This document shows, piece by piece, positions 1 to 13,887 of a stretch of DNA of 15,011 nucleotides. The DNA comes from Candidatus Lindowiibacteriota bacterium (lineage in GTDB: Bacteria; Lindowbacteria; 2-12-FULL-62-27), in contig JAHFCY010000056.1 of the NCBI GenBank assembly GCA_023249255.1, positions 1 through 15,011 on the forward strand. The letters are read 5' to 3'. Each line of letters opens with the position of its first letter. The first letter of the stretch is position 1. The translations under genes were made by a program, and so were the position numbers. Below the pieces are notes generated by a model. It was not told where the DNA came from and did no database searches. It saw nothing but the letters and a program-made list of their open reading frames with translations.

Positions 1-768
1 CGATTCCACGGCGCGGATGCCGCTGACCAACGCCGTCAATTCCGCCGGATCTAGGGAGAAGGCGTGATCGGGGCCGTCCATGTCTTTCCCCAAGGTAAAA
101 TGTTTTTCAATCACGCAGGCGCCGAGGGCGACCGCCGCCAGAGAGATTTCGATGCCGGGCGTGTGGTCGGAGAATCCGACCGGAACGTCAAATGTCCTGT
201 TCAATTCCATGATGACGCGAAGATTGGCGTCTTCCGGCCTGGCGGGATAATTGCTGACGCAATGGAGAAGAACCAGCCGATCATTTCCCGCGGAACGGAT
301 CGTTTCGACGGCCGTCCCGACTTCGTCCTGCGTGGCCATGCCGGTCGACAGAATGATCGTTTTTCCTTTCCGTGCGACATGGGCCAGGAAGGGCAAATTC
401 GTCAATTCGCCCGATGCGATCTTGAACGCCGCCACGCCCAGCCGATCGAGAAGGTCCGCGCTTTCTTCGTCGAACGGGGCCGACAAAAAAATGATGTTGC
501 GCGACCGGCAGTGCGCCCAAAGGACGCAGTGCGCCTCATCAGACAGTTCGAGACGGTGGAACATCTCCTGCGCGGGACCCGCCGACACAAGCCTGGCGGC
601 CTTGAATGTTTGAAACTTGACGACATCCGCGCCGGATTTCCACGCGGCGTCCACCATGTCGCGGGCGATGCAGGCATCGCCATTATGATTCACGCCCGCT
701 TCAGCAACGATCAAGCACGGGGCGCCGGGACCGACGATCCTGTCTCCGATTTGAATCTGTTCCCTCAC
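1..768 (-). CDS. neuB: NeuB-family nonulosonic acid synthase (N-acetylneuraminate / legionaminate / pseudaminate synthase-like), 3' end beyond window
   Basis: This enzyme family condenses phosphoenolpyruvate with a 6-carbon amino sugar to make a nine-carbon nonulosonic acid in the cytoplasm. I translated the first 256 codons. They contain the family's hallmark blocks in order: AEAGVNHNG (residues 22-30), KFQTFK (51-56), LSAPFD (95-100), IASGEL (117-122), STGMA (141-145), LHCVSNYP (168-175), GFSDHT (198-203) and IEKHFTLGK (220-228). The frame is still open at base 1, so the C-terminal third and the usual antifreeze-like (SAF) domain lie outside the window. I chose GTG at 766-768 because a GAGGGGGTGGAG ribosome site precedes it and homology begins at once. 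The gene starts 68 nt inside the end of the upstream frame. The segment between KFQTF and LELS is about 18 residues shorter than in typical NeuB proteins, as I recall them. The family assignment is secure; the exact product (Neu5Ac, Leg, Pse or another) cannot be told. Confidence 0.93.
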   Translation of the reverse strand, partial: MREQIQIGDRIVGPGAPCLIVAEAGVNHNGDACIARDMVDAAWKSGADVVKFQTFKAARLVSAGPAQEMFHRLELSDEAHCVLWAHCRSRNIIFLSAPFDEESADLLDRLGVAAFKIASGELTNLPFLAHVARKGKTIILSTGMATQDEVGTAVETIRSAGNDRLVLLHCVSNYPARPEDANLRVIMELNRTFDVPVGFSDHTPGIEISLAAVALGACVIEKHFTLGKDMDGPDHAFSLDPAELTALVSGIRAVES

Positions 769-2818
769 GGTTCTCCACCCCCTCACCTATTCTATCTTGT
801 CCCCACTGCCGCCGATACAACTGCGACGCGGACGCCACAGCCGAGTCGGGCGCAGAGTCGTTGTCGAGACTCTCGAGAAGCCACTGAAGATATTGAGCCA
901 TGCGTCCGGACGCGCCGCCGTCCCGGAACGGATCCTTCTTCTCAATCCCTTCGGAGAGATCTCCAAACCGCGAACCTCCGGGCGATGTCCGATGCGCCGA
1001 CAGAGCGGCGCGCAATTCCTCCCAGGATGAATAGACCACCTGATGGGGCCATCGATATTCCGGCCGCGTCACGAGTCCATCGATGTCGAGAAACACCGTC
1101 GGCACGCCGGACAGAAAGGATTCCAGAGCCACCGTTCCGCCGCGCAACAACGCAACAGCGGCATCTCCCGCCTGCGCGGCCTCGGTCGGAAGAACGTCCG
1201 TCAATCGGGCGCCCTCCTCGATTAAGACGCATCGGCCGGTCGCCACCGCTTTTTCGACAAGCGGTTTGATCTCCGGCATGCGGATAAAGAGCGAGCGGGG
1301 ATGTTTCGGTTTGATGATCAAGCCGAGAGACGGATCAGCCAGCACGGTTTCAATCATCCGGCGGTAGAGATCCGCGGTCCGGCGATGGGAGGCATAGGCA
1401 ATGCCGGCGGCCGCGGTGTTTTCGTCAAAAAAACAAAGGATGAATTCCGCGCCGGCGGCGCGAAGCCGAGACCTCAAGAGTTTAGCGCCCGATTGAACGG
1501 CGGCAAACGACAGGTCAGTGATGTAACCGCAGTAGACAATAGCCCCGATCGCCGAATGGGATTGACACAACGGCTCGCGAAAAGCCGGGCCGAACGCGAA
1601 ATAGACGTCACGGCAAACCGCCAGGGGGAGTTTCGAGACGTGCAACTGGGAAAACTGGAAGCCGACTCCGATACCGCCCAGCTCCCGAATCGCCGCCTGC
1701 AGCGGAACGGCCTCATCCGAAAACTCGTTGTTCTGAATGTGGATTCGGATCCCGCTCCATTCGAAGAAATCGATCCACCACGCATAATTCCGGACAAAGA
1801 GAATCATGAGGTCGGCAAAGATCGCCGGCTCCTCACGCAGGCGAATCCACGCGGACATCAGGGTCCACGCGATTTTCGCGTTCCACTTCAGGCATGTCCT
1901 CAAACTTCTCCACCCCGGCCGGAAGAGGGGAATCCGGGGATCGCGCCGGGCCTCCGGTCTGAACGCGACGGCACGGATGCCCGCCTCGTTCAACCGATCG
2001 ACCATGTCGGAAGTCACCGGCACGTCGGTTCTGTCGAAGCAGATCACCACCCGATCTCTGCGAATCGACGGAGGGATGAGCCAAAACAAGTCCGTTCGGA
2101 AGCGGGGATCCAGGCCGATGCCCTTTCCGTTGAAGAGCGCGCCGATCGACGGTTCGCGATCCAGGCTCGACGGACGAAAGAGCAGGCCGCGCATCGAGAG
2201 TACCGGCCAGAGGAGGCGGCGCATGACGCGGCCCAACCGGCGCGGCCATCGGCCGGGATGCGGATAAGATTGAGCCTGGACGCCCTGCGTCCGCGCATCT
2301 TCGCAGAGGATGCCGGCAAAGGCATGCGAAAACAGAAACAGACAGGAAGCCGGGGTCGCGCGGGTGACCCGAATGTGCCACCGCACGGCATCGATCATTG
2401 CAACCACGCTTCGAATGGAGGGACTCATTTTTTTCATCACGTAGAGGGCGACGCGGTCTCTGCCAAACCGGTCCGCAAACGCGGAAAAGACGCGGGCGCG
2501 GCTCGCATGGTCCTCCACAATCCGTTCGCAGGCCCGCGTGACGTCGTTCGCCGTCCTGGCCTCAAACATCCCTTCGCCTCCATCGGCGTGAATTTCTCCC
2601 AGATGGAAAGAAAGCGGCTGAATCCTCGCCGACCGGAAACCCATCCGGTCAAGCCGGGGAAGAACTCGGCGCATGAAAGGCGTGATCGAGAAGTAAAAAA
2701 CTTCAGAGAGGCGGCGGGCGGAAAATACCCGGGCGAGTGTGACGAAATTCAGCTCGTCAACGTAAATCCGATCGATGGGCAAACCCGTCAGACCGGCCGA
2801 AGAAGCGCAGGCGCGCAC
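701..2818 (-). CDS. Large GT-B-like surface polysaccharide biosynthesis protein, specificity unknown
   Basis: About 705 residues, with no clear transmembrane segment or signal peptide. The C-terminal third looks like the nucleotide-sugar-binding half of a GT-B glycosyltransferase or CDP-glycerol-transferase-like protein: IIKPKHP, then a Gly-rich turn and helix (LLRGGTVALESFLSGVPTVF) and a strand ending FLDIDG. A central block, IQNNEFSDEAVPLQAAI, followed by a GGIGVGFQFS segment, recalls uncharacterised surface-carbohydrate proteins in LPS loci, from memory. The frame stays open far upstream, but that part only shadows the epimerase gene. I chose GTG at 2816-2818 because GGAGA sits 10 nt before it; this overlaps the epimerase end by 31 nt. 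A TTG at 2780-2782 is an alternative start. The last 22 or so residues overlap the neuB start and look low-complexity and Arg-rich. Most likely a cytoplasmic glycosyltransferase of this operon; donor and acceptor are unknown. Confidence 0.8.
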   Translation of the reverse strand: MRACASSAGLTGLPIDRIYVDELNFVTLARVFSARRLSEVFYFSITPFMRRVLPRLDRMGFRSARIQPLSFHLGEIHADGGEGMFEARTANDVTRACERIVEDHASRARVFSAFADRFGRDRVALYVMKKMSPSIRSVVAMIDAVRWHIRVTRATPASCLFLFSHAFAGILCEDARTQGVQAQSYPHPGRWPRRLGRVMRRLLWPVLSMRGLLFRPSSLDREPSIGALFNGKGIGLDPRFRTDLFWLIPPSIRRDRVVICFDRTDVPVTSDMVDRLNEAGIRAVAFRPEARRDPRIPLFRPGWRSLRTCLKWNAKIAWTLMSAWIRLREEPAIFADLMILFVRNYAWWIDFFEWSGIRIHIQNNEFSDEAVPLQAAIRELGGIGVGFQFSQLHVSKLPLAVCRDVYFAFGPAFREPLCQSHSAIGAIVYCGYITDLSFAAVQSGAKLLRSRLRAAGAEFILCFFDENTAAAGIAYASHRRTADLYRRMIETVLADPSLGLIIKPKHPRSLFIRMPEIKPLVEKAVATGRCVLIEEGARLTDVLPTEAAQAGDAAVALLRGGTVALESFLSGVPTVFLDIDGLVTRPEYRWPHQVVYSSWEELRAALSAHRTSPGGSRFGDLSEGIEKKDPFRDGGASGRMAQYLQWLLESLDNDSAPDSAVASASQLYRRQWGQDRIGEGVENREGTDSNRRQDRRSRRPVLDRC
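773..784 (-). promoter_or_regulatory. Ribosome binding site that decides the neuB start
   Basis: On the minus strand the purine-rich run GAGGGGGTGGAG ends four bases before the GTG start codon of the NeuB-like gene. It lies inside the 3' end of the preceding reading frame, so initiation probably depends partly on ribosomes finishing the upstream gene. Confidence 0.6.
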
Positions 2819-3837
2819 CGCACAAGGGTCTCCGTTCGATCGCGAAGCACGATCGAGCGACTCGGCGCGCTCAGAAGTTTGAGGACGGCCCGGCTTCGGC
2901 GGCCCGGAGCCGCGGCCACGGCCGCCTTCTTGTACGCGATCACTCGTCGAATCCCCTCGTCGAGGGAAATTTTCGGCATGAATCCGACCATCCGCCGGAC
3001 CTTGCTGATGTCCGGCAGGCGATTGTGGATTTCGCGGGATTTGGCGCGATCCTGCGATCCCAGGGGCGCGTGCCGGATCAGAGATGGACTGACGCCCGCG
3101 TGCTTGATGATCTTTCCGGCCAGATCGGCGATCGTGATGAGTTCGAGAGGATTTCCGATGTTGAAAACCGTGTTCCTGGTTTTCGGGCTGAACAGGAGGC
3201 GGATGACGCCGTCGACGATGTCGTCGACATAACAAAACGCGCGCGTCTGCAGTCCGTCGCCGTTGACGCGAAGAGGCAGGCCCAGAACGGCGTTTGTGGT
3301 GAAGACGGACATGACAAAATCGTCCCGCTGTTTGTCGCCGTAAGCGTTGAAAAACCGCGCGATGGTGAAGGGAAGGCCGAAGTGCTGGTAATAGGCGCGG
3401 CAATATTCCTCGCCGACAACCTTGCTCACACCGTATTCGGAGATGGGCGACAGCGTGGCGCCCTCCTTGATCGGGACGTCCCGGGGCTCGCCGTAAACCT
3501 CAGAGGACGAGCTGAAGAATATCCTCCTGACCTTCCGCTTGACACAGCACTCGAGCACATTGCGCGTGCCCATGATGTTGACGTCGAGGCATTCCAGGGC
3601 ATTGCGGGTCGAGGCGCGGACTCCCAAGAAGGCCGCCATGTGGACGACATACTCGCATCCCTCCATGGCCTCCAGAATGGCCGCCTGATCCAGAATACTG
3701 CCGCGAAAACATTTCGCGCCTGGAATTCTCACGTCGTATTTGTCCAGAACATGGACCTTGTGGCCGAGCGCAACCAAAGCCCGGGCCACCGACGACCCGA
3801 TGAATCCGCCGCCTCCGGTCGTCAGAACCCCCGCCAT
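2788..3837 (-). CDS. NAD(P)-dependent SDR sugar-nucleotide epimerase/dehydratase/decarboxylase
   Basis: An extended short-chain dehydrogenase of 349 residues that acts on nucleotide sugars through a transient keto intermediate. The N-terminus carries TTGGGGFIG with the GxxGxxG dinucleotide loop at residues 8-14. The FSSSSEVYGEP strand (108-118) holds the catalytic Ser region and is followed by YGVSK, giving the YxxxK pair Tyr135/Lys139. RFFNAYG (161-167) and TRAFCYVDDIVDG (198-210) are typical of UDP-sugar epimerases and UDP-glucuronate decarboxylases. These motifs do not separate a 4-epimerase, a 4,6-dehydratase and a decarboxylase. After about residue 305 there is a basic, Ala/Arg-rich tail of about 45 residues beyond the usual domain end. 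A strong ribosome site (GGGGAGGT, 3843-3850) fixes the ATG start. The gene lies 13 nt after the sulfotransferase gene and overlaps the GT-B-like gene. Confidence 0.92.
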   Translation of the reverse strand: MAGVLTTGGGGFIGSSVARALVALGHKVHVLDKYDVRIPGAKCFRGSILDQAAILEAMEGCEYVVHMAAFLGVRASTRNALECLDVNIMGTRNVLECCVKRKVRRIFFSSSSEVYGEPRDVPIKEGATLSPISEYGVSKVVGEEYCRAYYQHFGLPFTIARFFNAYGDKQRDDFVMSVFTTNAVLGLPLRVNGDGLQTRAFCYVDDIVDGVIRLLFSPKTRNTVFNIGNPLELITIADLAGKIIKHAGVSPSLIRHAPLGSQDRAKSREIHNRLPDISKVRRMVGFMPKISLDEGIRRVIAYKKAAVAAAPGRRSRAVLKLLSAPSRSIVLRDRTETLVRCAPALLRPV

Positions 3838-3850: not shown

Positions 3851-5056
3851 TCAGCATGAAGACACGCGCCGGCGCAGGCATTGATTCAAGTATGACCGGC
3901 TCATGAACAGGCCTTCCACGACAGTTTCGTCGAGAGACGACGAGGCGTCCTCCTCGAGAAGAAGCATATTTTTTCGCAGAACTTCCTTCATCATTTCAAC
4001 GACGTTCGACGTGCGATCGGTGCAGGCATATTTTCTGATCCAGTCAGCCAGTTCGTCCGGTGGCACGATGGGTGGGTTCAGGACATCCGACAGGGGAATC
4101 TCGTCCGTCGAATCGCAGGACGGTTCATAGCCGAAGACTTGCATGTCCGGAGAACAGAGCGTTTCGACGAAACGAACTTCCTCCGGCGTCAGCACCTCCC
4201 GCCACTTCTCCGCCAGGCGGTTCGTGATGACGGATGAGGCGCCGCTGTAAACCGAATTCTGCCGCCACGGATTCCCCCACCCATCCCGGAACCCGCCACC
4301 GTCAATCATATCCGGCGAGAAATCGACGTCGAGAAAATTGCAGATGCGGCGGGCCGTCGATTCGCAGTCGGCGATCAACTCCTCATACCGGACCACCAGG
4401 ACCGATTCCCGAAGATCTGCGTCATGGGAAAAAATCCATGTCAACGCCGCGAGCTTCCGCCACTGTCTCACGAGAAACAGCCACGGATATCTGGCTTGCA
4501 GCCGGTTCGAGGCGAATACCGCCCTCGGATCCCGGACCATCAGAATGAACTTCATGTCCGGAAACGAACGCGCCAGAGGGCGGACGAATTCCGTGCACCA
4601 GACCTCCTTGTGTCCCACGATCCGCGCGCCCTGTTTTCCATACGTCCGCCGGACCAGATCCATCATGGACGAATAGATTTCGTCGTACGTGCCGCCGCCT
4701 ATCTCATGCATCCGTTCCGCAATTTTTGGGACGAACAGCCGCGCCCGCTCGATCAAGACCGGAACAAGGCGGCGCAAATCTTCCGCCGGAATCGGAACTG
4801 AGAGATTCGATTCCCGGACCGACTTCATGATTCGCCGTTCAGTTTCATCGCAGAAATAGGAGGAGAGAGGAGACTGCAGGGAATCCGGCGAGGCCAACCC
4901 GTTCCCGATCGCAATCCGGTCTCTGAGATCGTTAAACATCGGCCGATAGGGATCGGAGGCGAACGATACGCAGGGATGAGCGTCGAGCATGCGCGCCATG
5001 AGCGTCGTTCCGGACCGAAACATGCCGGTCACGAGAACGAACGGCATCCCGCTCAT
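3851..5056 (-). CDS. PAPS-dependent sulfotransferase family protein
   Basis: A 401-residue cytosolic sulfotransferase-type protein expected to move sulfate from 3'-phosphoadenosine 5'-phosphosulfate to a hydroxyl or amine of a carbohydrate. The 5'-phosphosulfate loop is GMFRSGTTLMARML (11-24), with Arg14-Ser15-Gly16-Thr17-Thr18. The 3'-phosphate-binding strand and helix are FILMVRDPRAVFASN (170-184), with Arg175 and Ser183 in the expected places. RYEELIAD follows later, as in bacterial sulfotransferase_3-type enzymes. The start is ATG at 5054-5056, overlapping the stop of the aminopeptidase-like gene as ATGA, so the two are probably translationally coupled. No PAPS-synthesis genes are in the window. 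In this operon a glycan or its lipid-linked precursor is the natural acceptor. The family call is firm; the acceptor is inferred. Confidence 0.92.
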   Translation of the reverse strand: MSGMPFVLVTGMFRSGTTLMARMLDAHPCVSFASDPYRPMFNDLRDRIAIGNGLASPDSLQSPLSSYFCDETERRIMKSVRESNLSVPIPAEDLRRLVPVLIERARLFVPKIAERMHEIGGGTYDEIYSSMMDLVRRTYGKQGARIVGHKEVWCTEFVRPLARSFPDMKFILMVRDPRAVFASNRLQARYPWLFLVRQWRKLAALTWIFSHDADLRESVLVVRYEELIADCESTARRICNFLDVDFSPDMIDGGGFRDGWGNPWRQNSVYSGASSVITNRLAEKWREVLTPEEVRFVETLCSPDMQVFGYEPSCDSTDEIPLSDVLNPPIVPPDELADWIRKYACTDRTSNVVEMMKEVLRKNMLLLEEDASSSLDETVVEGLFMSRSYLNQCLRRRVSSC

Positions 5057-6381
5057 CGGATGTCGATCAATCCTTTTTCGGCCCAGGCCCGAAGATAGGT
5101 TTCGACCGCCGGCAGAGACAGTCCCGTTCTTCGCGCGAGGGCGCGCGAGGCCGCGGGCTTTTCAAGCGTCGGAATCAGATCCATTAACTCCCGAAGCCTC
5201 CGGCGCTCTTCCGAGAGTTCGCTGCCAAATGCGCCCTGACCCGGTTCGACATACAGATCGTAACGGGGATTGGAAAGGCATACCGTCCCGCGAAATTTTT
5301 TGGAGACCCAATTCGTTTGTTCCAGCCGGTCGATCGACGCCATCAGAAGATCCACCGATTCCGCCAGAGAAGATTCCGAGATGATATCCAGGTCGTCCCG
5401 GCTCGAGTGATATTCGGGATACGGAAAACGGGACAGGCTCGACATGGGAATGCCGTAGGACTCCCAGACCGCCTCGTCGTTGCAGACCACGGTTCGGTAG
5501 TCTCCGATTCCGAGCGGAATCTGAAGCTCCTCCGCCGCATTCGTGACGCTGTATTCGAGTTCCGTTTGGCCGCTCAATGAACGCTGGAGATTCAAAGGCG
5601 TCCGGCTTCCCAGCATTTCCAGATAGATGGCTTCCAAAATGGGCGACGGCGGGCGGGAATGGGCCAGATAAAATTCCGAGCCGATGATTTCCTGAAGGAG
5701 AAGAAGTTTGTAGGTGAACTTGCGGGGCGCGGCGGCAAGTTCCTTGAAAAGCTGAACACCCACGGCGCATCCCGCAAGATCGTCATTCGACATGCCGGGA
5801 TGGTCCAGATGCGCAACGAACGCGAACGTTTCCGGAAGCCGGCCGGGGATCGTGTATTCCAGCATCCTCAACTCGCCCGGAGATTCCTCCGTTCGGATGA
5901 CGACGCGATAATTTCCCGGACCAAGATTGTCATGGAATTGTTTTGTCACGCAAAATCCCCAGTCCCGCTCCCACGGACGATATTCGAAGCGAAAGTGATA
6001 GGGGATCGCGTCATCGAAGCGGCGATCGTAGTGGAGGTGTCTTTTGAGTTCAGGCAAATCGACTTCACCTTCAAACGGGTTGGAGAGGGCGGCCACGGCC
6101 AGGGGATGCGCGAGGCCGTCGTAAATCACGCGACCGTCCCTGTATATCTTTGCCTCCTTCAGGTTCCAGCGCGGCGGAACGACCCAGCCGTTATGGGAAT
6201 CGGAGGCGCCGGCGGTGACAATATTGAAAGGAAGAATTTGCCGGAGATAATCGATGGCCTGGTCATAATCATCCGAGCAGAAGACTCTCCGGAGGGGCGT
6301 GAGATCCCTCACCATCTGCATCATCAAGTCCGCAGTCAAAACCGCGTACCCATCCCCATTTCCCACCGTCTCAACTTTCAT
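5053..6381 (-). CDS. M28-like aminopeptidase-domain protein (DUF2172/DUF4910 type) with C-terminal winged helix
   Basis: 442 residues with the architecture of a family often annotated 'DUF4910 domain-containing' or 'aminopeptidase-like'. The N-terminal part (about 17-120) contains WVVPPRWNLKEA, typical of the DUF2172 insert. The M28-like metal site shows HLDHPGMSNDDLAG (191-204), EIIGSE (231-236) and EYHSSRDD (323-330), giving candidate zinc ligands His191, Asp201, Glu231 and His325. The C-terminal 40 residues (RALARRTGLSLPAVETYLRAW) look like a winged-helix. Members recur in surface-polysaccharide clusters, but I know of no established reaction; amide hydrolysis on a sugar N-acyl group or small peptide substituent is a guess. 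No signal peptide is seen, so it is cytoplasmic. Homology is obvious only from about residue 15, so a later start (GTG at 6364-6366, TTG, or ATG at codons 20/21) is possible. The annotated ATG lacks a ribosome site. Confidence 0.88.
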   Translation of the reverse strand: MKVETVGNGDGYAVLTADLMMQMVRDLTPLRRVFCSDDYDQAIDYLRQILPFNIVTAGASDSHNGWVVPPRWNLKEAKIYRDGRVIYDGLAHPLAVAALSNPFEGEVDLPELKRHLHYDRRFDDAIPYHFRFEYRPWERDWGFCVTKQFHDNLGPGNYRVVIRTEESPGELRMLEYTIPGRLPETFAFVAHLDHPGMSNDDLAGCAVGVQLFKELAAAPRKFTYKLLLLQEIIGSEFYLAHSRPPSPILEAIYLEMLGSRTPLNLQRSLSGQTELEYSVTNAAEELQIPLGIGDYRTVVCNDEAVWESYGIPMSSLSRFPYPEYHSSRDDLDIISESSLAESVDLLMASIDRLEQTNWVSKKFRGTVCLSNPRYDLYVEPGQGAFGSELSEERRRLRELMDLIPTLEKPAASRALARRTGLSLPAVETYLRAWAEKGLIDIR

Positions 6382-8780: not shown

Positions 8781-9866
8781 TCACTTCCCCGAAAAGAAAT
8801 TTCGGACGGACGAAACGACATACTCCAACTCCTCCCGCGTGATGTCCTGATGAACCGGAAGACTCAGGATTTGCCGGATCAGCCGCTCCGCCACAGGCGC
8901 CGGCGCGGGCAGATGCCGGTAGGCTGCCTGCTGGGTGATGAGAAACGGCTGTCGGATGCGGACCTCGATTCCGCGGGACTGCAGATAGGCGGAAAGTTCA
9001 TCGCGGCGGTCCGTCTGGATGGTGTAGGTGTAGAAAATGTGATCGACGCCCACGTCGGGACACCGGACCACGTCGCGGAGCGTTTCCGTGTAGAACTGCG
9101 CGTTTGCGCGGCGGCATTCGATGCGGCGGCGGAGACGTTTGGCGTTGACCAGCAGCAGGGCGGCCTGGATCGTGTCGATCCGCGCGTTCAAACTTGGATC
9201 ATGACAGTCCTCCTTGTTGATCGTCCCCGCGTATCGCAGGCTGATGAGCCGGTCCCGAATCGTCTCGTCGTCCGTGACCACGGCGCCCGCCTCGCCGTAC
9301 GCGCCCCAGAGTTTCATCGGGTTCATGCTGAAACAATTCACACGCCCGAACGATCCGGCGCATCGTCCGTCACGTTCCGCGAGAACGGCCTGCGCGGCGT
9401 CTTCGACGACGGCAATCCCGCGGTCCGCCGCGGTCCGGCAGATTTCCGTCATGCGGCACAGTCTGCCGTGCCAGTGGACAGGCAGGATGACTTTCGTCCG
9501 CGACGTGAGGCCGGCCGGAATGAGGGATTCGTCGATATTCATGTCATCCCGCACGTCCACAAAGACGGGCGTTGCGCCGCAGAGGGTGATGGCGTTGGCG
9601 GTGGCGACCCAGGCCAGCGGCGTGGTGATGACCTCGTCGCCGGGCCCCACGTCAAGCGCGCGGAGGGCGAGGTAGAGGGCGTCTGTGCCCGAGGCCATGC
9701 CAACCGCAAACCGCTTGCGGCTCATTTCCGCAATTAATTTTTCGAGCGCTTCGACTTCCGGTCCCAACATGAGCTGACCGTGCGACAACACGCGGTCAAC
9801 GGCCTCCAACAATTCACGCTTGAGTTCCGGATCCTTCACCCGCAAATCCAAAAAAGAAACATCCAT
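8781..9866 (-). CDS. DegT/DnrJ/EryC1/StrS-family PLP-dependent sugar aminotransferase
   Basis: 361 residues, the usual length for this family, which transfers an amino group from glutamate or glutamine to a keto-sugar nucleotide. ASGTDALYLAL (58-68) is the phosphate-binding turn, VVEDAAQA (153-160) has the Asp156 that pairs with the PLP pyridine nitrogen, and FSMNPMKLWGAYGEAGA (179-195) holds the Schiff-base Lys185. PVHWHGRLCRM (129-139) matches the conserved VHLYG-type region of C3-aminating members such as FdtB/QdtB/DesV, but regiochemistry cannot be assigned safely. It is the first gene of a tight run with two methyltransferases and is transcribed divergently from the radical-SAM-like gene. 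The ATG start has AGGACAGGGGCGGA upstream, a usable ribosome site. Cytoplasmic. Confidence 0.94.
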   Translation of the reverse strand: MDVSFLDLRVKDPELKRELLEAVDRVLSHGQLMLGPEVEALEKLIAEMSRKRFAVGMASGTDALYLALRALDVGPGDEVITTPLAWVATANAITLCGATPVFVDVRDDMNIDESLIPAGLTSRTKVILPVHWHGRLCRMTEICRTAADRGIAVVEDAAQAVLAERDGRCAGSFGRVNCFSMNPMKLWGAYGEAGAVVTDDETIRDRLISLRYAGTINKEDCHDPSLNARIDTIQAALLLVNAKRLRRRIECRRANAQFYTETLRDVVRCPDVGVDHIFYTYTIQTDRRDELSAYLQSRGIEVRIRQPFLITQQAAYRHLPAPAPVAERLIRQILSLPVHQDITREELEYVVSSVRNFFSGK

Positions 9867-9943: not shown

Positions 9944-11677
9944 ATGAGCGGGGATACAAGTCTGCTGATACCGGCGATGTACCCGAATTGGACGGCGCCG
10001 ATCGGGGATGAGAGTTTGCTGTTGGCGGCGCTGCGAAACGCCGGACGGTGCGACCCGGTCGGTCCGGTCTTCATCGCCACGGCTCCCGCCTCAAAGGAAT
10101 TGTGCAGACAACAGTCCGCCTCATTCGGAGCGGCGGCGACGTTCCTGGATTTTCCGGCGGAACCCCAGGCTTCCCAGCCGTCCTCCGAACTCGACGTTTT
10201 TATCCGGGCCCTCCGCGAAATGAAAACGGAATGGCTGGCCGCGCTTCCGCCGCTTCAATCCAATTATTTCGATCCCGGCGCGTTTGAATACGCGCGGGAC
10301 GCCGCGGAAAAGAAAAAGGCGCGGGTCGTCCGGTGTTCGGCGATGAAAGGCTGGGACCTGATCGGCTTTCACAAATCCATTCTTCCAAAATTGGAGGAGA
10401 TTGCCGGCAATCTCCGGCGGATCGGCTACGCGCCGATCGATCTTCATGCGGCGCTGCACACGCTGAGATCGGAGTATCACGACTGCGTGGATCCGTACCG
10501 CGCCGCCATCGCCGCAAGACGCGGCCGGGCGCTACCGCTCAGCAAACTCAATCCCGCGTTTCTGTGGTGCTGGCCCGGAACGATCGACGCCTATCGGTCC
10601 GTGACGGAAACGCAGCGCTGCCGCCTGTCGGAGCTGACGATCGACCGGATGGCCGATGCGGCCGACAGCCCCGGTGTTCTTCGCGGCGCGAACCCGTTTT
10701 CGGCCTGGCTCGAACTTTCGGCCGTCAACGATCTGCCGTCGATTTATTCTCCCCTGCGGCACTGGTCCAAACCAGACCGTTATCCGGCCTACATGGACGC
10801 CGGCGTCTTCGAGCGGTTCATGTCGATCGTCTATGAAGACATCTCGGCCTGCGCCGAAATCCATCTGTCGGGCCTTGGCGAGCCCACGCAGTCTCCGGCG
10901 TATGTCGATTTTCTGAAATCGGTCCAGCAGGCGTTTCGAAGCCGTCCGCTGACGCCCGCCATCCACTGCTACACGGACGGGCGGCTGCTGGATGAGGAAA
11001 CCGCGAGGCTGATGACGATGGGCGGGGTGACGTCCGTCATGATCTCGCTGGACGCGGTGGAGAAAGGCTTCTATGAGAAAGTCCGGCCAGGCGGAGACTT
11101 CGACGCCGTGAAATCGAATGTGGAACGTCTGCTGGAATTCAAACGGACGCGGCCCCGTCCCGCGGACTGGGCCGGCGTCGAGCCGGTCATCGCCCTCACG
11201 ACCACGCTCGCGGCCGAATTGGAGGACCACATTGACGCCTTCATGTCATCCCGCATGTACATGAACAAATGGCTCAAACAGCACGGCAAATCCCTTGCGC
11301 CAAACGCCGTCTGGGAAGTGCGGGACCGGTTCTACGCCGAAGGGCACACGGTGGAACATCTCGTGATCCAGGGGGCGTCGACCTACGCGGGACAGATTCC
11401 CGACCGGCGGCTGGCGGTGTACACGCCGCTCAAGCGATTCCCCTGCCGGCGCCTGCTGAACACGCTCTTTGTGAAAACGGACGGCAGCATCGTGGTCTGT
11501 GACAGGATTTTTGATCCGACGGACGGTGCAGTCGTCGCAAACGTCCGCGATATCCATTCGATCCGGGACGTCTGGGGCCTCCTGGCCGACAAGCGGAATG
11601 CGCACGAGGACGGGCGGTACGCGGAGGCGCACGCGCGCTGTCAATCCTGCGAAGACTGGTTTATTCCGGTGGACTGA
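9944..11677 (+). CDS. Radical-SAM/SPASM-like protein lacking the CxxxCxxC cluster motif, with degenerate nucleotidyltransferase-like N-terminus
   Basis: 577 residues, the only plus-strand gene. Residues 1-120 resemble a worn GT-A/cytidylyltransferase fold (IPAMYP, GDESLLLAAL, then ALPPLQSNYFDPGAF). From about 253 a radical-SAM barrel is recognisable: AWLELS, then SGLGEPT (309-315) as the GGE-like motif, and MISLDAVEKGFYEKVRPGG. Where CxxxCxxC should stand, the protein has NDLPSIYS: Asn262, Ser266 and Ser269 at exactly the cysteine spacing. The SPASM-like end is intact: Cys501-x12-Gly514-x4-Cys519, then Cys566-x2-Cys569 before EDW. Such a protein could not hold the canonical SAM-cleaving cluster but could hold one auxiliary cluster. 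It resembles proteins called spiro-SPASM in spirochaetes, from memory; I do not know whether those keep the cysteines. Its location suggests a link to glycan synthesis, but function is unknown. The ATG has no clear ribosome site. Confidence 0.85.
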   Translation: MSGDTSLLIPAMYPNWTAPIGDESLLLAALRNAGRCDPVGPVFIATAPASKELCRQQSASFGAAATFLDFPAEPQASQPSSELDVFIRALREMKTEWLAALPPLQSNYFDPGAFEYARDAAEKKKARVVRCSAMKGWDLIGFHKSILPKLEEIAGNLRRIGYAPIDLHAALHTLRSEYHDCVDPYRAAIAARRGRALPLSKLNPAFLWCWPGTIDAYRSVTETQRCRLSELTIDRMADAADSPGVLRGANPFSAWLELSAVNDLPSIYSPLRHWSKPDRYPAYMDAGVFERFMSIVYEDISACAEIHLSGLGEPTQSPAYVDFLKSVQQAFRSRPLTPAIHCYTDGRLLDEETARLMTMGGVTSVMISLDAVEKGFYEKVRPGGDFDAVKSNVERLLEFKRTRPRPADWAGVEPVIALTTTLAAELEDHIDAFMSSRMYMNKWLKQHGKSLAPNAVWEVRDRFYAEGHTVEHLVIQGASTYAGQIPDRRLAVYTPLKRFPCRRLLNTLFVKTDGSIVVCDRIFDPTDGAVVANVRDIHSIRDVWGLLADKRNAHEDGRYAEAHARCQSCEDWFIPVD

Positions 11678-11679
11678 AG

Positions 11680-11700
11680 AAACGAGAAATTAAATCGTTT
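11680..11700. terminator. Weak candidate bidirectional terminator between convergent genes
   Basis: AAACGA (11680-11685) and TCGTTT (11695-11700) form a 6-bp stem with a 9-nt A/T-rich loop exactly at the junction of the two convergent genes. On both strands the stem ends in a short T tract. The stem has only two G-C pairs, and it overlaps the isomerase stop codon, so it is plausible by position but weak by stability. Confidence 0.25.
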
Positions 11701-12358
11701 TCCGCCAGAAGTGCGGACGCGGCGCGGAGTCGGAAGGATTTTTAGGCAAGTCGATGAATTCCTCAAGGATCGCCGTGAGAATTCCCAAGTGCGTCAATTC
11801 GACCAGACCGTACGACACGGACGGCACGTAGAAACTCAGACCGCCCATTGACCGCAGGGGATTGTCCGATGAAAATCCGGTCAAGGTGAGGACGGCGCAT
11901 TTTTGCGCGAGAGCGGCTTCGGCGGCGCGGAGAATGTTTTCCGACCGGCCGGAACTGCTGACAGCCACGATCGCATCACCCGGCCGGGCTGTCCGGCGGA
12001 TGGGTTCCGCAAACACTTCGCGGTAGCCGCGGTCGTTGGCCATGCAGGTCAACTGCACGGGATCGTTGAATCCCAGGGTCCGGATGCGGCCCGCATTCCA
12101 GAAATCAAGCGCCATGTGTCCCGCCACCGCCGCGCTTCCGCCGTTTCCGACAAAGATGACCTGTCCGCCCGACCCGGAACATCGGCGGATCATGTCGACG
12201 GCCAGGGCCAGACCCCGCTTGAACGGCACGGCGCGGCCGTCCCGCCAAACCTCGATCCGCGACGGCGCGTCGACCCACTTCGAGATGAACGCGGCGGACA
12301 GTGGAGCCGAAGGCGGCATGGATTTCTTTCGCGTCCGAGGACGGATCGTATCCTTCAT
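11690..12358 (-). CDS. GmhA-like SIS-domain sugar phosphate isomerase
   Basis: 222 residues with a SIS fold. GmhA converts sedoheptulose 7-phosphate to D-glycero-D-manno-heptose 7-phosphate. FVGNGGSAAVAGHMALDFW (69-87) is the sugar-phosphate loop, VSSSGRSENI (133-142) is the second Ser-rich phosphate site, and ELTHLGIL (187-194) supplies His190, at the place of the catalytic His of E. coli GmhA (His180). The catalytic Glu of E. coli GmhA (Glu65) appears to align with Asp85, so the acid/base pair may be altered. The first 20 or so residues are a basic, Pro-rich extension. The ATG overlaps the stop of the HldE-like gene as ATGA, strongly linking the two as consecutive steps. A DiaA-like or other ketose-phosphate isomerase role cannot be excluded. 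Confidence 0.85.
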   Translation of the reverse strand: MKDTIRPRTRKKSMPPSAPLSAAFISKWVDAPSRIEVWRDGRAVPFKRGLALAVDMIRRCSGSGGQVIFVGNGGSAAVAGHMALDFWNAGRIRTLGFNDPVQLTCMANDRGYREVFAEPIRRTARPGDAIVAVSSSGRSENILRAAEAALAQKCAVLTLTGFSSDNPLRSMGGLSFYVPSVSYGLVELTHLGILTAILEEFIDLPKNPSDSAPRPHFWRKTI

Positions 12359-13887
12359 TTCAAGAGCGCCTTGATGAAGGGAAAGAGCCGGGCGGGACGG
12401 ACGGGATCCCGGTTGCAGACCGTTTCAACCGCCAGGGCGCCCACGCAATTTCCGATGAATCCGATCATCTCGGGCTCCATGTGGCGGAAGACGCACGGCG
12501 ACGTGACGGCGAAGAGCGCGTCCCCGGCGCCGGTGCGGTCGATGACGCGCGTGGTCATGACAGGCACGCGGTCGACGGATTTGCAGTCGTTCAAAATCAC
12601 GAGGCCGTTTGATCCGAGGCTGACGGTCAGGACGGAGGCGGCCAGGCGCCGCTTGATATCCGGCGCGATCGATTCGACCGGCCCGTGGGGACGGCCGGCG
12701 GCGAGGCGCAGTTCGGGGTCGTCGATGCAGACGTAATCGGCCCGGCGGTACCGGGTCACGGGATTGAATCCCATGTTCGCGCTGTTCGTCTGCGTGTTCA
12801 ACGCGAGAAAGGGCGCTGAGGCGCACAAAAACTCCCGGACGGACTCGGTGAGCAAGCCGTGGCCAAAATCATTCACGACCACGAGGTCATGCCGGCCCAT
12901 CTGTTCCCGCAGCGCGCCGATGATACGCCGCTCGAGTTCCGGCGAAACCGGTGAATCATCCAGAAACTGGATTTCAAACATCTTGGATACGTACGTCGGA
13001 TCGACGTACCTCCGTTTCGTGACGGTGGGCCGGTCGGCGGTCACCATGGGAATCCAGTCGACATTGGGCGCGAGTTTGCTTCGGATGAACGCCTGATCTT
13101 TTTCCGACGATCCGATGGATGTCATCAGCGTCACGCGACCGCAGAATCCGGCCAGATGATTGGCGGTGGCCAGCGCCCCGCCCGCGAACTGTTCCTCCGA
13201 GAGAAACTTGGTCGCCACAATCGCTTCCTTGGGGGATTTGCCGAGGGCCGTGCAGTAGCAGTATTGATCGAGAATCGCCTCGCCCACCACGAGGACATTC
13301 AATTCGGCCAGGCGTTTGATCTCCGAAATGACGTCATCCGCCGAATGACGTTTCCGAAAATCCTTCAAGAACATCTCCATCTCCGCCGGATAAGGAGCGA
13401 GAAAATGGTTGATGAGATGGCTGGAGCTGAAGACCTCGCCGTCGGTGAAGACCAGTTCAGCCCCCACCGATTTTGCGGCTTCCTCCTCCAGCGCGATGTT
13501 TCCCGTCGGATCGTTCCCGGCCTCTTCGTATTCCCTGCCTTTCACGTAAATGTCCGGTTTGATTTTCCGGATGGTTTCGATGGCGGTGGGCCAGTCATTG
13601 AGGGCGACATGATCGACGCACTCCAGCGCGGGGAGAGTCTCGAGCCGCAGGCTTTCCCGGAAGACGGGCCGGAAGGGCCCCTTGTTCACGAACCGATCCG
13701 GCGTGAGCGTGACGATGAGCCGGTCTCCCAGCCGCCGCGCGGCCTTGAGGTGCGCGATGTGTCCCGGATGCAGAAGATCGAAGACGCCGTGACAGTGGAC
13801 GGTCCGCAATCCCTGCCGGCGGCCTTCGAGAACAATCGACTCGAGGTGATCCAGCGTCGTGACCTTGGAATTGGCCGCGACGCTCAT
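12355..13887 (-). CDS. HldE-like fusion with reversed order: N-terminal nucleotidyltransferase, C-terminal PfkB-family kinase
   Basis: 510 residues. In E. coli HldE the kinase comes first and the adenylyltransferase second; here it is the other way round. The N-terminal domain (about 25-160) is a cytidylyltransferase-like fold with HGVFDLLHPGH, HxGH motif His40-Pro-Gly-His43. The C-terminal domain (about 195-505) is a ribokinase/PfkB fold with FAGGALATANH (234-244), VVVNDFGHGLL (336-346) and TGAGDALFAV (452-461), with catalytic base Asp456. It would phosphorylate heptose 7-phosphate at C1 and transfer NMP to heptose 1-phosphate, supported by the coupled GmhA-like gene. ADP- versus GDP- or CDP-activation, and the anomer, cannot be read. 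The ATG at 13885-13887 lacks a good ribosome site, but an in-frame stop soon upstream excludes a longer start. Confidence 0.9.
   Translation of the reverse strand: MSVAANSKVTTLDHLESIVLEGRRQGLRTVHCHGVFDLLHPGHIAHLKAARRLGDRLIVTLTPDRFVNKGPFRPVFRESLRLETLPALECVDHVALNDWPTAIETIRKIKPDIYVKGREYEEAGNDPTGNIALEEEAAKSVGAELVFTDGEVFSSSHLINHFLAPYPAEMEMFLKDFRKRHSADDVISEIKRLAELNVLVVGEAILDQYCYCTALGKSPKEAIVATKFLSEEQFAGGALATANHLAGFCGRVTLMTSIGSSEKDQAFIRSKLAPNVDWIPMVTADRPTVTKRRYVDPTYVSKMFEIQFLDDSPVSPELERRIIGALREQMGRHDLVVVNDFGHGLLTESVREFLCASAPFLALNTQTNSANMGFNPVTRYRRADYVCIDDPELRLAAGRPHGPVESIAPDIKRRLAASVLTVSLGSNGLVILNDCKSVDRVPVMTTRVIDRTGAGDALFAVTSPCVFRHMEPEMIGFIGNCVGALAVETVCNRDPVRPARLFPFIKALLK

Follow-up and report, generated by a model that had tools for sequence, protein, structure and literature searches.

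Radical-SAM enzymes are usually recognized by the cysteine motif CX3CX-phi-C, which defines the superfamily. The protein described here shares with anSME, SuiB, BtrN and other radical-SAM/SPASM or Twitch enzymes the barrel, the C-terminal fold, the GEP motif, the aromatic phi residue and the Ser/Arg of the ribose motif; however, enzymes of the anSME, SuiB and BtrN type carry CX3CX-phi-C and the catalytic cluster, whereas our protein lacks the motif, and it has cysteines for one auxiliary cluster in place of the two of anSME and SuiB. Among named protein families the nearest is spiroSPASM (TIGR04321), which has the same architecture of a nucleotidyltransferase-like N-terminus (on the spirochaete side judged from sequence only), a barrel and a SPASM domain with the same four cysteines, and many of whose members likewise lack the cysteine triad. 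Another curated NCBIfam family, TIGR04347, is already named a pseudo-SAM/SPASM protein and sets a precedent for the idea. Since NCBIfam names both families, the kind of protein is already known. Our literature search found no mention of spiro-SPASM, TIGR04321 or TIGR04347, and nothing on radical-SAM SPASM pseudoenzymes; within the literature searched, the Lindowbacteria form and its degenerate GT-A fusion appear to be undescribed, as do the repeated losses and the link to NeuB genes.

The stretch of DNA analysed (15,011 nucleotides from a Candidatus Lindowiibacteriota bacterium, hereafter the window) contains a gene whose product fuses three parts: a degenerate GT-A domain, a barrel unable to hold the canonical cluster, and a SPASM domain with the ligands of one cluster (Table 1). 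It looks like a new use of a fold, that of radical-SAM enzymes, for another job.

Table 1. Coordinates of the gene, its domains and motifs, and two neighbouring genes in the window.
Feature	Position	Strand	Basis or remark
Complete gene, 577 aa: GT-A-fold domain, Cys-less radical-SAM barrel, one-cluster SPASM domain	9944..11677	+	residues encoded 9944-11674
Nucleotidyltransferase (GT-A) fold, residues 2-240	9947..10663	+	structure model; pLDDT mostly > 80
Partial (beta-alpha)6 radical-SAM barrel, residues 250-475	10691..11368	+	structure model
Radical-SAM cluster loop slot, AWLELSAVNDLPSIYSPL; N262, S266, S269 replace three Cys	10706..10760	+	alignments
GEP (312-314), SAM amino-group motif, invariant in five homologues	10877..10885	+	alignment
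S368-L-D370 and R381, SAM ribose/carboxylate positions, invariant in five homologues	11045..11086	+	alignment; roles from PMC6231123
Insertion between strands 5 and 6, about residues 437-465	11252..11338	+	alignments
SPASM-type domain, Cys 501, 519, 566, 569	11444..11650	+	alignment; Pfam SPASM
DegT/DnrJ/EryC1/StrS aminotransferase, divergent neighbour	8781..9866	-	nearest named model PseC, under cut-off
NeuB-family nonulosonate synthase, truncated by contig end	1..786	-	TIGR03569, E 3.2e-97; missed by closed-ORF lists

A preliminary description of this DNA had claimed that all three Fe-S cysteines of a radical-SAM fold are replaced in register, and this observation is real. N262, S266 and S269 were aligned gap-free to the C/C/C of seven Cys-bearing radical-SAM/SPASM proteins (profile-profile alignment, probability 99.85, E 1.2e-30), a free multiple alignment likewise set them at the CxxxCxxC of Cys-bearing relatives, and the register at position 262 was retained when the slot was masked with X before alignment. 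Y268 is at the position of the aromatic phi residue. The three changed codons and the following proline were also found as described, AAC, TCG and TCT lying at window positions 10727, 10739 and 10748 and being followed by CCC (P270). Neither CX3CX-phi-C nor CxxxCxxC occurs anywhere in the 577-residue chain, judging from the positions of its cysteines (36, 54, 131, 181, 209, 226, 303, 342, 501, 519, 566 and 569), and a search of the close homologues for an intact CxxxCxxC elsewhere in the chain found none. The match to the Pfam Radical_SAM model starts only at profile position 47, beyond the Cys motif, and its score of 28.9 bits lies below the cut-off of 29.5. In the full-length structure model (mean pLDDT 72) the slot loop is modelled at pLDDT < 50, as are parts of the SPASM domain.

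Two other Candidatus Lindowbacteria genomes, G001 and G002, encode two further copies each, at 42-45% identity, and the triad is missing in all five homologues of the three genomes (window protein included). N262, D263, P265 and Y268 are invariant in the slot, position 266 is S/P/P/P/A and position 269 is S/S/S/F/S; the common motif is S-x-V-N-D-x-P-x-[IV]-Y. As a trio, N/S/S is not conserved in the clade. Since S266 is unconserved, the three residues have not simply taken over as ligands of the cluster; we reject the holding of a cluster by them, as positions 266 and 269 vary among the five proteins.

The models show the radical-SAM fold. The barrel strands of the full-length model comprise residues 253-257, 305-309, 339-344, 362-368, 415-420 and 470-475, and its residues 250-575 match SuiB, anSMEcpe, ChlB and BtrN at Z 14-15. 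When residues 241-577 were folded alone, they matched anSMEcpe (4k39_B; Z 15.2, rmsd 3.7, 224 aligned), SuiB (Z 14.9) and BtrN (Z 13.7), the best structural matches listed for this segment being radical-SAM enzymes; structure prediction and overlay thus agree with the barrel proposed earlier. As judged from the alignment only, the GGE-type motif and the ribose/carboxylate residues for SAM are present as GEP, S368 and R381; in SkfB the corresponding motifs touch the amino group, the adenine and the ribose/carboxylate of SAM (PMC6231123). Further polar residues, in the barrel or close to it, are invariant in the five homologues (E257, N262, D263, H307, H341, D345, R347, T420, T421, D428, H429, E466, H468 and H472), and so many of them argue for a pocket in use rather than for relaxed decay.

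The SPASM-like cysteines 501, 519, 566 and 569, reported earlier as retained, align with the auxiliary cluster I cysteines of Cys-bearing relatives and are conserved in 63 of 63 aligned proteins; the Pfam SPASM model (PF13186) gives 17.8 bits, below its cut-off of 21.5. No extra cysteines for the auxiliary cluster II of a full SPASM domain were found, and as just four cysteines follow residue 342, the protein can have at most one SPASM cluster. At the other end of the chain, residues 2-254 match a Leptospira cytidylyltransferase (6oew_A; Z 17.1, rmsd 3.5, 221 aligned), closely followed by IspD, GlmU, TarI, MobA and KdsB. Residues 2-240 share the fold of GT-A cytidylyltransferases (6oew, IspD, KdsB, NeuA; Z about 14-17), but the window protein possesses neither their P-loop-like N-terminal nucleotide-binding motif nor the metal aspartate of D-x-P, PAMYPNWTAPIGDE and ALPPLQSNYFD standing there instead (read by eye). 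The D-x-P aspartate is absent, also by eye, from all seven non-spirochaete Cys-less proteins. This N-terminal domain, together with the repeated spiroSPASM losses, the retained SAM-pocket motifs and the NeuB-type context, goes beyond the preliminary description.

The window protein matches TIGR04321 with E 2.4e-24 and 85.9 bits, and its relatives score 78-96 bits, under the 250-bit cut-off of the model. It differs from spiroSPASM in lying outside the spirochaete clade of the tree, in the insertion between strands 5 and 6, in the NeuB genes nearby and in the loss of the D-x-P aspartate. The insertion is missing in Cys-bearing relatives and recurs in a second rare phylum, whose two proteins (genomes G210 and G069) are of equal length to ours and also Cys-less. 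TIGR04347 matches these two weakly (E 4e-9 and 1e-8); with the window protein it gives no match up to an E-value of 1. One query protein retrieved no close relatives from genome contigs, nor did a profile from viral contigs. An intact paralogue in the window genome was also considered and rejected: the other TIGR04321-like matches that were read comprise a MoaA-like protein, shorter radical-SAM proteins and two weak matches, none with the fusion.

In the phylum of G305, which is probably Spirochaetota, judging by the name of the family, 234 of 296 genomes have one spiroSPASM match. The triad is missing, by our own alignment, in 33 of 52 sampled members, a sample skewed toward high-scoring matches; the can_G036 protein was left out of the family alignments and trees. 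Some slots are devoid of cysteine (YPLKSIYKPN), and others hold an intact CPQACxxCPYP. Partly decayed triads, in which the first cysteine only (NCLANPFYNPY) or the second only (REEGECIYSPY) is left, were seen in L097, L101, L104 and L105 and in L113, L115, L117 and L118. The L143 member reads CPAHCDNKFCPY, with two extra residues between the second and the third motif cysteines.

The tree built without the slot columns requires nine state changes, three of them forced by well-supported branches, and we read these changes as losses because the motif defines the superfamily, the tree itself giving no direction. A single clade of all Cys-less forms is rejected (p-AU 4.2e-5), and so is a single clade of the spirochaete ones (p-AU 1.5e-4); a clade that joins the Lindowbacteria proteins to those of the second phylum is not rejected (p-AU 0.49). 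E313 is present in 39 of 40 Cys-less proteins. The Ser of the ribose motif is kept in 9 of 40 Cys-less rows versus 17 of 23 Cys-bearing ones, and its loss from most spirochaete Cys-less members means that SAM binding cannot be general in the family. Tyr at the phi site occurs in 30 of 40 Cys-less and 5 of 23 Cys-bearing proteins (Fisher 6e-5), a difference that offers just three independent contrasts on well-supported branches and leaves a tree-aware test powerless; we do not retain this Tyr as an adaptation to cysteine loss.

The opposite strand of the window carries surface-sugar genes, including those of an HldE-like kinase/cytidylyltransferase, methyltransferases, an epimerase and a sulfotransferase. 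Adjoining the gene, at 11690-13887 (-), lie an SIS isomerase and a fused cytidylyltransferase-kinase with the HldE order reversed, and a similar pair is found in a G002 cluster (L051:12317-14550). The sugar cluster also contains a DUF4910/DUF2172 M28-type aminopeptidase-like gene (5053-6381, -), and at 701-3403 (-) there is a 900-aa open frame with no NCBIfam match, whose middle resembles, by eye only, a 702-aa protein encoded beside a G001 Cys-less copy (L050:4876-6981, no Pfam match). The divergent pair with the DegT gene is common to the window and L049. A B12-binding radical-SAM gene lies at L049:1053-3146 (+), between the two Cys-less copies of G002, and a Maf/PseD-like flagellin-modification gene with an MptE-like domain (L051:6032-7849, +) about 50 bases upstream of the second of them.

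A NeuB-family gene is located within 20 kb of every copy outside the spirochaetes, at 9.2 kb in the window, 7.7 kb in G002 and about 5 kb in G069; the second copies in G001 and G002 have theirs 17-19 kb away. In G001 (L048) it overlaps the Cys-less gene on the same strand and its product scores above the PseI cut-off; in G210 it is 1.1 kb away and accompanied by a PseG-like gene and a cytidylyltransferase gene. This proximity may be a mere sign of a large glycan island around the gene. No glycan genes were seen in two spirochaete neighbourhoods read by eye, which means that a glycan role may hold only outside the spirochaetes.

We suppose, with a probability of about 0.5, that the window protein is a repurposed (pseudo-) radical-SAM/SPASM protein with one cluster, which takes part in nonulosonate glycan synthesis by binding a nucleotide or sugar-nucleotide. 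Without a site-differentiated [4Fe-4S] cluster, reductive cleavage of SAM would not be possible. The barrel could still bind SAM, SAH or another nucleotide via GEP, Tyr268, Ser368 and Arg381, as these conserved positions suggest, and the auxiliary cluster may support the fold or sense the redox state. The protein as a whole would then have a binding, carrier or regulatory role in the synthesis of sialic- or pseudaminic-type surface glycans. The earlier suggestion, that a one-time radical-SAM enzyme has been retained as a pseudo-enzyme or as a protein with one cluster, is supported by the fold, the clade-wide loss and the SPASM cysteines. Extended to the entire, widespread family, the reading is more tentative: the catalytic cluster would have disappeared on several independent occasions, with retention of the auxiliary cluster and of most of the SAM pocket, and a radical enzyme with a fused nucleotidyltransferase fold would have become a cluster-bearing nucleotide or sugar-nucleotide binder of nonulosonate glycan synthesis.

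A rather unlikely alternative is an enzyme with redox or substrate-binding activity, in which the auxiliary cluster, perhaps open-sited as in MoaA, acts on a sugar-nucleotide without SAM. The invariance of the four SPASM cysteines and of the polar barrel residues would suit it, as would the presence of BtrN, a one-cluster sugar dehydrogenase, among the structural neighbours; however, the SAM-pocket residues retained in the Lindowbacteria group would be needless in such an enzyme. We are more doubtful about a pseudo-enzyme acting as a partner: it would associate with a true radical-SAM enzyme encoded at its own locus, to position the substrate or to activate that enzyme. Both second-phylum genomes do have Cys-bearing radical-SAM/SPASM genes at the locus, and the B12-binding gene of G002 could encode such a partner, but these candidates differ in kind, and neither the 15 kb window nor the annotated G001 neighbours included another radical-SAM gene.

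It is improbable that the protein is still a radical-SAM enzyme in which other loop residues (Asn, Asp, Tyr, Ser) or a nearby His bind the first cluster. N262, D263 and Y268 are invariant, and auxiliary clusters of LipA, BioB and PqqE have non-Cys ligands (Ser, Arg, Asp; PMC6231123), but Pro or Ala at position 266 and Phe at position 269 in homologues speak against this, and in the Cys-less proteins of spirochaetes all three sites are occupied by unrelated residues, no set of three ligands being conserved. As to a decaying pseudogene, a sequencing error or a misassembly, the source genome is indeed fragmented (88.7% complete, 366 contigs); nevertheless, the homologues refute this explanation, whose probability is negligible. 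The 577-codon frame is maintained open across three genera in spite of their divergence, the same loss recurs in all five copies, and the differences between homologues are concentrated at third codon positions, the pattern of a gene under purifying selection.

Proteins that are devoid of the motif and keep every SPASM ligand provide a test of independent roles for auxiliary clusters, and the repeated loss, together with partly decayed motifs in living lineages, forms a natural series from enzyme to pseudo-enzyme. Annotation tools that rely on the Cys motif or on the Radical_SAM model miss or misname such proteins. Finally, the NeuB-linked members hint at an undescribed component of sialic- or pseudaminic-type glycan synthesis.
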